From: Balneolaceae bacterium
GTDB lineage: Bacteria > Bacteroidota > Rhodothermia > Balneolales > Balneolaceae
Length of the DNA: 64,000 nt
Direction of reading: 5' to 3'
Assembly: GCA_017640665.1 (NCBI GenBank)
Contig: JAEPQE010000005.1
Coordinates: 62,001 to 126,000, forward strand
Positions 11,705 to 19,913 of the stretch are shown piece by piece (the stretch's first letter is position 1; each line of letters opens with the position of its first letter). Under the pieces are notes generated by a model. The model was not told the origin of the DNA and did not search any database. It saw only the letters and a program-made list of their open reading frames with translations. The position numbers were made by a program, and so were the translations under genes.

Positions 11705-11731
11705 GTCATTCCGGGCTTGACCCGGAATGAC
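11705..11731. repeat. Palindromic repeat GTCATTCCGGG-CTTGA
   Basis: GTCATTCCGGG, loop CTTGA, CCCGGAATGAC: a perfect 11-bp stem. It lies between two convergent genes. The ends (GTCAT/ATGAC) and CTTGA loop are shared with the repeats around the GIY-YIG gene at 17.7-18.1 kb, so I place it in that family. It could also act as a transcription barrier, though no T-run follows. Confidence 0.75.
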
Positions 11732-16149: not shown

Positions 16150-16609
16150 CTGCTACTTCTTTTCTAATTTAGTCTTTTTACGAGTGTGTGAACCCCAAAT
16201 GTAACCAATAATTCTTCCTTTTTTAATTATTGGTGGGTTAAGTTTTCTATGCATTAAATACAGACATCCTCCGTCATTTGATCTATTCGATCAAATGCCA
16301 CCTCCTTCGAAGGAGGAATAATACAAACCGACCTCTGAAATATTGGCGAAATGAGTGTATCTGAGGCATTAATATTGATCAATGCTTCCCAAACAAATCC
16401 GTAAAAAAATGGGCAATCCCAGTTATCAGAGGTGGTAAGAATCGTGATCGTTTGTTATAACAACGTCTCGTAAAATGAAATCTGCATTTTTTATGGCGAT
16501 TTTGGATACTTTTGATCGTTCAAGAGTATCAGGAACTACTTGCCAATGTACTTATTTGTGCAGATCCTTCGGAAGTATCCTCAGGATGACTTTAATTAAC
16601 TAGTAAACC
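16150..16609. repeat. Gene-free region with several palindromes
   Basis: A 460-base gap between divergent ppc and tag with no convincing gene. Three structures are clear. CCAATAATT (16205-16213) and AATTATTGG (16225-16233) form a 9-bp stem in the ppc leader. At 16273-16316, CATTTGATC-tattc-GATCAAATG is followed by the palindrome CCTCCTTCGAAGGAGG. At 16563-16590, GATCCTTCGG...CTCAGGATGAC is a degenerate member of the GTCATCCTGAG repeat family. Promoters for both flanking genes must lie here too. Confidence 0.65.
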
Positions 16610-17626: not shown

Positions 17627-17678
17627 ATGCACCTAACAAGTGTTTCAAACGAGACGCGTGATTCTGCTTCTTTTCTTC

Positions 17679-18089
17679 GTCATCCTGAGCTTGACTCAGG
17701 ATCTTACGAATAGACTCTAAAAGTGACTCCGGAAATTATCCTCTTAACGTCTTATACCAATCTTCCAGCTTAGGATTTTGATTCTTTACCAACTCCCATT
17801 TCCATTGCTTTCTCCAGTTCTTCAACTGTTTTTCTCTGGCTATTGCATCACTTATTGAATCGTATTCTTCTGCATATACCAGAACCGTTAGTTTATACTT
17901 AGATGTGAACTTCGAACCTTTACCTTCTTTATGATTCCATACCCTTAGGGAGATATTATTGGTTACTCCGATATAGAGTGTAGTTCTTTGGAAGTTGGTG
18001 AGGAAGTATACGTAGCCTTTGTTCATGTTCAGTAAGATCCTTTAGAGTACCAATCCTTACAAAAGATCCTGAATCAAGTTCAGGATGAC
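17679..18089. mobile_element. GIY-YIG gene framed by inverted dispersed repeats
   Basis: A unit of about 411 bp. Its left end (17679-17722) starts GTCATCCTGAGCTTGACTCA and its right end (18034-18089), read on the minus strand, starts GTCATCCTGAACTTGATTCA. The first 27 bases differ at only two positions, each forms an 8-bp hairpin with a CTTGA loop, and both are followed by an ACTCTAAA block. Between them lies only the GIY-YIG gene: its start codon is 7 bases inside the right repeat and its stop 13 bases from the left one. Related repeats occur elsewhere in the window. Interpretation as a mobile or repeat-propagating element is inference. Confidence 0.5.
17736..18026 (-). CDS. GIY-YIG domain nuclease
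   Basis: A 96-residue single-domain protein of the GIY-YIG/UPF0213-like family, small nucleases related to the UvrC N-terminal and homing endonuclease domains. The two signature strands are YVYFLTN (residues 5-11) and LYIGVTN (17-23). The catalytic Arg is in ISLRVWNHK, the Glu in AIAREKQLKNW and the Asn near WELVKNQNP. There is no DNA-binding extension, so specificity would depend on the domain itself or a partner. It is enclosed by inverted copies of a dispersed palindrome (17679-18089). Function of these stand-alone proteins is poorly defined. Confidence 0.92.
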   Translation of the reverse strand: MNKGYVYFLTNFQRTTLYIGVTNNISLRVWNHKEGKGSKFTSKYKLTVLVYAEEYDSISDAIAREKQLKNWRKQWKWELVKNQNPKLEDWYKTLRG

Positions 18090-18250
18090 CGTGTGAGTTG
18101 GTTTTGATTGATGGGCTTGAGATTCGGGAAAGAGACCTAATTAAAAGCTGCTCAATTTATTACGGGCTTGTGGGCAATAAAATTATTCAGTTACTTCAAC
18201 AAAAACGAGAACCTGCGCCGCTTAAACGCCGGGTCGTTATATATACTAAA

Positions 18251-18712: not shown

Positions 18713-19080
18713 TGCACGCGTGTGTATAAGAAGCGTTTTCCCCCTCGTTGCTCAGCTCTTCTGCGTGATGCGTTCCCGTAATTCCTATTTCTAACAAGAA
18801 CGAATCTCAACCAAGTCATTCCTGCGAAGGCAGGAATCCAGATACTCTAAAAAGCTCCAGATCCCCGCATTCGCGGAGATGACGGTTATAGAAAGTAGAA
18901 TCTTCAACCTCATCCCCATCCCTTCTCCTTCGCAAGGAGAAGGTAGCTCATTGATCTGATTCCATACTATACAGAAAATTCTCCTCCTTGTGAAGAGGGA
19001 GATAAAGGAGATCGAAGTACAGAACGGAATTAAGTACATTCTTACATCTTCAACCTTAACTTAATATTTACCAACCATTC
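18713..19080. repeat. Repeat-rich gap, BIME-like doublet
   Basis: A 368-base gap with no gene. A compound repeat occupies 18815-18883: it begins GTCATTCCTGC-gaag-GCAGGAAT, has a spacer ACTCTAAAAAG, and ends in a second inverted hairpin CCGC-attc-GCGG plus GATGAC, so it begins GTCAT and ends ATGAC. The ACTCTAAA spacer is the same as in the GIY-YIG flanks. At 18921-18943, CCTTCTCCTT-cgc-AAGGAGAAGG is another perfect hairpin. An 82-codon open frame here is only translated repeat. Confidence 0.65.
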
Positions 19081-19590: not shown

Positions 19591-19913
19591 TTAAAAGTCA
19601 TTCCTGCCTGTCCGCCGTAGGTACATTTTTGGAAAGCGGGCGAAGGCAGGAATCCAGATACCCAAAAAAGCACCAAATCCCCGACCCTTCTCTTAGCTCT
19701 TTGATTTGATCATTCTATACAGAACGTCCTCCTGCTTGCTAAGGAGGAGACAGAGGTCGGGATAAGGATTATTATTCAGAAGTTGTTATCCCGGACTTGA
19801 TCCTCAATTTGTAAAGAGTGATACTTTGCTAAATTTTTAAACAGAAACAATACTACATTCCTCATGGATGCTGAATTGAATTCAGCATGACAACTTATAT
19901 TAAATCTTATTGT
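19591..19913. repeat. Repeat-rich gap before the permease
   Basis: A 323-base gene-free gap. At 19597-19655 a repeat starts GTCATTCCTGCC and ends GGCAGGAATCCAGATAC, with an inner CCGCC/GCGGG pairing. At 19784-19803, GTTATCCCGGACTTGATCC is a truncated relative of the CTTGA-loop palindrome. At 19866-19891, GGATGCTGAA-ttgaa-TTCAGCATGAC is a full one with an 8-bp stem. An ATG at 19887 inside this last repeat is in frame with the next gene but is unlikely to be its start. Confidence 0.65.

Follow-up and report, generated by a model that had tools for sequence, protein, structure and literature searches.

Between two inverted copies of a palindrome that recurs elsewhere in its genome, a stretch of bacterial DNA of 64,000 nucleotides (hereafter, the window) carries a single small gene encoding a GIY-YIG nuclease. 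This raises the question of whether gene and palindrome form one mobile element, or whether their association has another origin. A first-pass annotation of the window had compared the arrangement with REP palindromes flanking RAYT transposase genes, and had put forward a candidate element in which a GIY-YIG enzyme substitutes for the transposase.

The palindrome fits the superfamily of CGTC-tagged REPs, which includes the neisserial dRS3 and the rickettsial RPE-4 and RPE-6 repeats and is recognised by a CGTC, TGTC or CCTC tag, a stem of 8-9 bp starting with AT, a loop of 4-5 nt and an unpaired tail that is mostly CCA; the survey of these repeats stated their apparent lack of a dedicated transposase (Di Nocera 2013, PMC3733652). 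In the open-access papers searched, preprints excluded, no earlier report linking GIY-YIG genes to REPs was found.

The locus and its palindromes

The two inverted arms (17679-17705 and 18063-18089, 27 nt each) are 93% complementary, agreeing at 25 of 27 positions as first described, and the 25-mer core of the arm has exactly two matches in the window at up to three mismatches, with zero expected in shuffled sequence. Each arm forms a perfect 8-bp stem around the loop CTTGA that had been noted (ATCCTGAG-CTTGA-CTCAGGAT and ATCCTGAA-CTTGA-TTCAGGAT) and carries at its outer end a (C/G)GTC tag, CGTC on the left and GGTC on the right, the latter being a variant absent from the published list of CGTC-REP tags. 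The sole gene between them is the GIY-YIG ORF (Pfam PF01541, E=7e-15), whose start codon is 36 bases and whose stop codon 30 bases away from the arms, instead of the 7 and 13 bases first given. The coordinates of all features are collected in Table 1.

Table 1. Features of the REP-nuclease-REP locus and related palindromes in the window.
Feature	Position	Strand	Remarks
Left CGTC-tagged REP, class A (CGTC, 8-bp stem, loop CTTGA)	17678..17705	+	3' side of nuclease gene
GIY-YIG nuclease, 96 aa, UPF0213/COG2827-like, Slx1-like fold	17736..18026	-	
Leader: GTAAGG (18055-18060) and CTTAC (18032-18036)	18027..18062	-	Minus-strand reading
Right CGTC-type REP, class A, tag GGTC	18063..18090	-	Inverted copy 5' of gene
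Entire REP-nuclease-REP unit, about 413 bp	17678..18090	.	Edges deduced from related copies in unrelated surroundings
Outer attC-like block common to second copy on contig C3	17634..18239	+	93% identical over 609 bp
Solo class B REP	16566..16590	-	Type as repeats around paralogue L007
Solo tagged palindrome GTCATTCCGGGCTTGACCCGGAATGAC	11705..11731	.	Class A loop, different stem
Solo class E REP (GTCATTCCTGCGAAGGCAGGAAT)	18815..18837	+	
Solo tagged palindrome GTCATGCTGAATTCAATTCAGCAT	19868..19891	-	

The palindrome is dispersed, as had been claimed: in the genome of 3.8 Mb its class, referred to as A, is present in 17 strict copies, against 0 for the same pattern read backward, and BLAST recovers about 30 places. 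Within the window, tagged hairpins number 8, versus 2 in the reversed sequence. The related hairpins first listed at five other positions are real in four cases (Table 1), with differing stems, while the fifth, at 19784, is not an intact hairpin. No class-E nuclease was found in the window's genome. A block ACTCTAAA had also been taken as a common spacer or part of the repeat; this is rejected, since its 5 matches in the window are at chance level (2.8 expected), with one alone (18844) at another hairpin, and since it is missing from related copies of the element at other places.

The unit fills the middle of an outer block resembling an integron attC. No integron integrase for this block was found above the curated cut-off, so its attC identity is taken as a candidate resemblance only. 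Arms of this kind (TAACAAGYGTTTCAAGCGG ... CCGCTTAAACGCCGGGTCGTTA) surround the unit in the window and at G000:C3:578059-578665, and they are found again as a cluster on contig C1 (G000:C1:1016852-1020000), resembling a cassette array in which no integron integrase can be recognised. The window copy and its 98% identical paralogue share this block, which exceeds the REP unit, and thus their duplication was probably not brought about by the unit itself. A search of Rfam gave no match to a known structured RNA.

Flanking repeats in homologues from many phyla

Homologues were collected by scanning contigs with a three-row alignment and were picked by protein similarity alone, giving 80 from many phyla; gapped inverted repeats were then scored in the 300 bp on each side, with a threshold of at least 14. 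Flanking inverted repeats were found in 54% of the 76 scorable homologues versus 3.7% of 748 other ORFs of the same loci, random intervals giving the same picture as the ORF control, and in 61% of 41 loci from the window's bacterial family versus 1.6% of 313 ORFs. Tags facing inward on both sides occur in 34/64 family members (53%) and 4/307 ORFs (1.3%; p=5e-26), and in 41/76 distant homologues and 24/727 ORFs (p=5e-31); an earlier, narrower tag motif had given 42% vs 0.7%.

Thus, to the question of whether genes of this kind are always flanked, the answer is that about half of the homologues are, while some have no repeats, such as paralogue L005 or E. coli yhbQ, a cellular relative with neither flanking inverted repeats nor CGTC-type tags. 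Genes lacking the repeats go part of the way towards another of the findings that had been named at the outset as speaking against the element. None of five REP classes (A-E) was found near 18/64 family members and 14/76 distant ones. Another copy of the flanking repeat was present in only 5/24 of the 20-kb loci of distant species, and therefore these loci do not establish dispersal of the repeat there.

A later, separate sample comprised 13 GIY-YIG loci from a plasmid collection that includes megaplasmids and mislabelled chromosomes. Inverted repeats were found at 10/13 of these loci and both tags at 8/13, the named records including Azospirillum lipoferum (gene between sufB and sufC), Sphingobium, Shinella and Rhizobium. 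The locus of Neisseria gonorrhoeae has dRS3-like sequence, and in Sinorhizobium meliloti and Novosphingobium the inverted repeats are not accompanied by both tags. Several of the species with this arrangement are known hosts of CGTC-REPs (Sinorhizobium, Azospirillum, Neisseria and Sphingobium). On a Planktothrix plasmid (L288), the GIY-YIG gene is flanked by MmeI-type restriction and DISARM genes.

These frequencies bear on the possibility that the gene encodes a cellular repair nuclease of the Cho/YhbQ type, with REPs gathering in the gaps around it or serving as terminators or mRNA stabilisers. Small COG2827 nucleases of Caulobacter, one of them with an SOS box, have indeed been proposed as a backup of UvrC (PMC1839093), and the untagged E. 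coli yhbQ carries the annotation of a DNA damage response nuclease. However, ordinary ORFs of the same loci are seldom flanked in this way, and the correspondence between nuclease clades and palindrome classes inside genomes, the unrelated locations of near-identical copies whose edges fall at the REP, and the presence of up to 14 family members per genome, broken relics among them, all of which are described below, also speak against a repair enzyme, which we consider unlikely.

Correspondence between nuclease clades and palindrome classes

Eight related nuclease genes are present in the window's genome (3.80 Mb), and their flanking inverted repeats differ: L001 and L002 are flanked by class A (GTCATCCTGARCTTGAYTCAGGATC), L003 and L004 by class C (TGTCACCCTGAGCGC), L006 by class D (GTCATTGCGAGGAG) and L007 by class B (GTCATCCTGAGGAYACYTCCGAAGGATC), while no recognisable inverted repeats were found in the flanks of L005 and L008. 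Classes A-E were assigned by regular expressions drawn up once the flanks had been seen. For L179 the label was corrected manually, since GAGCTTG also matches the class C expression, and the window locus, tied between A and C, was kept as A.

On a protein tree of 142 sequences and 97 columns, in which many forks are unresolved, the 44 labelled genes of the family require 6 changes of class. Free shuffling of the labels gave a mean of 18.0 changes (minimum 15), and shuffling within genomes, which removes the effect of taxonomy, a mean of 12.1 (minimum 8), with a value as low as 6 in 0/1000 shuffles. The class-A clade (20/20) is strongly supported. For class D, the strict pattern has too few copies in the genomes for a clade test. 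As judged from tree and flanks, then, nuclease clades match palindrome classes, even among the paralogues of one genome.

Repeat numbers and mobility

Of 92 genomes of the family, 13 have a clade-A nuclease, and in each of these the strict REP-A copies number 7-38; the other 79 have no close clade-A nuclease, and among them 51 lack REP-A and 14 have at least 7 copies. In three genera, genomes with the clade-A gene exceed the others in REP-A copies in 30/30 comparisons (permutation p=1.5e-4). Many REP-A without a detected clade-A nuclease are found in G067 (76), G045 (53), G016 (19) and G018 (17), some of the exceptional assemblies being incomplete and others not. Repeats in genomes devoid of any GIY-YIG copy had been named at the outset as an argument against the element, and such a case is found in part, at least one of the 14 genomes, G045 (81% complete), having no detectable relative at all. 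For RAYTs too, orphan REPs and enzymes without REPs have been reported (PMC3733652).

Unrelated sites in a single genome (L200, L201, L203 and L204), and in its relatives as well, carry class-A units whose DNA is 93-96% identical. The sequence they share has recurrent ends, at +63/64 on the upstream and +55 on the downstream side of the gene, that coincide with the (C/G)GTC tag; other shared edges are located beyond these, at an outer inverted repeat (TTGTAGATGTYAGGTAATTC). From the comparison of these related copies, we infer that the unit moves with defined ends. Genomes carry up to 14 family members, and broken relics are situated between inverted REP-A copies, as at G003:C1:720975-721262. 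A MITE-like family with ends TTGTAGATGTYAGGTAATTCNNTGACA (L201:5887-6410) is found at many places in G001, G002, G004 and G007, its orthologous sites holding REP-A-nuclease-REP-A, a REP-C pair or other contents.

One intergenic site (L230, L202, L194, L148, L229 and L225) carries CGTC-type REPs of varying kinds across genera; it lies on the 3' side of a gene whose sequence we read, in place of an annotated name, as the end of polA. At the polA-side site the unit is present in G001, G002, G004 and G008, REP sequence with other contents in G007, a gene-less REP pair in G039, and in G005 the site is uninterrupted (AAATAAGGATGAAGTCATTTAG). This distribution suggests loss of the element in G005. 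Empty sites had been called for in the first-pass annotation, and one orthologous site without the element is thus available; its junction, however, also fits a deletion between AGGA repeats, so that it does not prove insertion, and no target-site duplication was seen at this empty site, which may be a deletion scar. The polA-side site alone is clean, other groups of orthologous sites having different repeats, larger insertions or contig ends.

The variable contents of this site (full unit, gene-less REP pair or nothing, by genome) would also be expected from a homing-like process, in which the nuclease cuts solo-REP sites and repair from a full element yields REP-gene-REP, no new REPs being made. 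Homing enzymes are known within the GIY-YIG nuclease superfamily, and the window protein has a fold near that of Slx1. Nevertheless, homing leaves unexplained that REP numbers track the nuclease clade, and edges at the tag between unrelated flanks suggest that sequence was inserted, not that a shared stretch was converted. We consider such a process unlikely.

HUH transposases as a benchmark

The same flank test was applied to 40 loci of HUH transposases (Y1_Tnp) from genomes of the window's bacterial family. Inverted repeats scoring at least 14 were found in 67.5% of them, and the test thus recovers the known RAYT-type pattern, with sequences unlike the nuclease repeats. Examples among L241-L280 are GTCCCGTAGGGAC and GCGAAGACCTGAAGGACTTCGC; several further families of the REP/RAYT type apparently exist in this bacterial family.

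This benchmark concerns another possibility, namely that REP-nuclease-REP is a MITE-like passenger that depends for its movement on an HUH/RAYT or other transposase acting in trans. Y1_Tnp genes are present in 63/92 family genomes, and some copies of the unit lie inside the larger outer inverted repeat mentioned above, which is also seen with other contents. The 40 Y1_Tnp loci, however, have their own, different repeats, with inward tags on both sides in 0/40 and any CGTC class nearby in 1/40; moreover, numbers of REP-A and of HUH transposases are uncorrelated (rho 0.02), REP-A is present in G009 (18 copies) and G020 (14 copies), both free of Y1_Tnp, and the strong selection on the nuclease would be odd for such cargo. 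Passenger status therefore appears improbable, and HUH/RAYT enzymes as mobilisers of these REPs are unsupported by the 40-locus test and by the lack of correlation.

The nuclease, its hairpin and its leader

Y7, Y18, R28, H32, E65 and N84 of the window nuclease occupy conserved positions of the family; across 38 sequences Y7, R28, E65 and N84 are invariant and Y18 is nearly so, so that the catalytic Tyr, Tyr, Arg, Glu and Asn of the UPF0213/COG2827 GIY-YIG domain are all present. The structures nearest to the predicted model (pLDDT 91.5) are those of UPF0213 (1zg2) and of the nuclease domain of Slx1 (6sei, TMq 0.62, rmsd 2.1). Branched DNA is the substrate of Slx1.

Between related or mobile copies, dN/dS has a median of 0.12 and is below 1 in 18/18 pairs, a pattern indicating that the protein is under selection. 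Pairing of the hairpin was assessed on class-A repeats extracted by tag and loop alone, pairing not being demanded: perfect 7-bp stems are found in 86/140 repeats, with 12 stem types, and mean pairing is 5.39 of 7 vs 3.92 with the arms shuffled (maximum 4.16). Judging by these values, hairpin pairing is likewise under selection.

A GTAAGG...CTTAC leader directly before the start codon occurs in paralogues of several clades and is specific to the window's bacterial family, GTAAGG being found upstream in 42/64 family loci vs 14/1054 control ORFs, and in 1/80 distant homologues. This leader is perhaps a regulatory hairpin.

Relationship to known systems

The closest known system is REP/RAYT. As in the REPtron (a RAYT with GTAG-REPs), a small one-gene unit lies between inverted copies of its own tagged, dispersed palindrome, the enzyme lineage is paired with a palindrome class, and orphan REPs occur. 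The window enzyme is, however, a PF01541 GIY-YIG protein and not an HUH Y1 transposase, the tags are CGTC/GGTC and not GTAG, near-identical multi-copy units are found here, and the Y1_Tnp genes of the same genomes have unrelated repeats. Since enzyme and tag differ, the unit is not regarded as a REPtron member, although the architecture is the same.

With the CGTC-REP superfamily, the window palindrome has in common the tag, an AT-starting stem (8 bp), a loop (5 nt) within the described range and dispersed copies, and the species are in part the same (Sinorhizobium, Azospirillum, Neisseria). It differs in its tail, CTT instead of CCA, which was not treated as defining because the source says just that most tails fit CCA, and in that a GIY-YIG nuclease lies between the repeats, whereas the 2013 paper found no dedicated transposase.

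The UPF0213/COG2827 proteins (E. coli YhbQ, B. halodurans BH0048, 1zg2) and Slx1 share with the window nuclease the domain, the catalytic positions and the fold, but E. coli YhbQ lacks flanking tags of the CGTC type, and Slx1 has an additional zinc-finger domain and a partner, Slx4 (PMC7017083). GIY-YIG homing endonucleases of the I-TevI type resemble the window unit in nuclease superfamily and in being mobile single genes; unlike them, the unit has no intron, intein or separate DNA-binding domain, and is bounded by hairpin repeats that also occur solo.

Proposed mechanism and significance

Comparison of sequences reveals the pairing of nuclease and palindrome, its spread across phyla, the match of clades and classes, copies at unrelated sites, and selection on both protein and hairpin. 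Taking these together, the locus is probably a small mobile element with CGTC-tagged REP ends, whose only gene would encode an Slx1/UPF0213-like GIY-YIG nuclease dedicated to that palindrome. The candidate proposed in the first-pass annotation has thus gained support from the enrichment of flanking repeats, the clade and class correspondence, the unrelated sites with edges at the tag, the element-free site and the HUH benchmark, and the most likely reading is a REP/RAYT-like element with an Slx1-like nuclease in place of the HUH transposase.

In the mechanism proposed here, the nuclease would recognise its own REP once this has folded into a hairpin or cruciform, and would nick it at the junction between tag and stem. 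Host repair or replication would then give rise to copies at new sites, either of a solo REP or of the gene enclosed by two REPs, and the dispersed solo REPs would be non-autonomous products, as is thought for RAYT REPs. Since GIY-YIG enzymes, unlike HUH enzymes, are not known to hold DNA covalently, rejoining would probably take place through host ligation, microhomology or gene conversion.

As the missing partner in the spread of CGTC REPs, which are among the largest bacterial repeat classes, this GIY-YIG family is a strong candidate. There is a real chance that the unit constitutes a separate transposon type. More tentatively, and with somewhat less than even confidence, small GIY-YIG nucleases might be the dedicated mobilisers of the whole CGTC-REP superfamily, and represent a transposon type without DDE, HUH, tyrosine or serine recombinase or reverse transcriptase chemistry, in which hairpins are spread by nicking and host repair.

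CGTC-tagged REPs are widespread in the intergenic regions of alphaproteobacteria, Neisseria (dRS3), Rickettsia (RPE), Bacteroidota and others, and a class-matched GIY-YIG nuclease between such REPs makes the question of their missing transposase directly testable. The element proposed here would give a function to the common UPF0213/COG2827 proteins, usually annotated as 'GIY-YIG nuclease' or, misleadingly, as 'excinuclease ABC subunit C'. It would also demonstrate that an unrelated enzyme can underlie, and has underlain, the origin of a REP/RAYT lifestyle.
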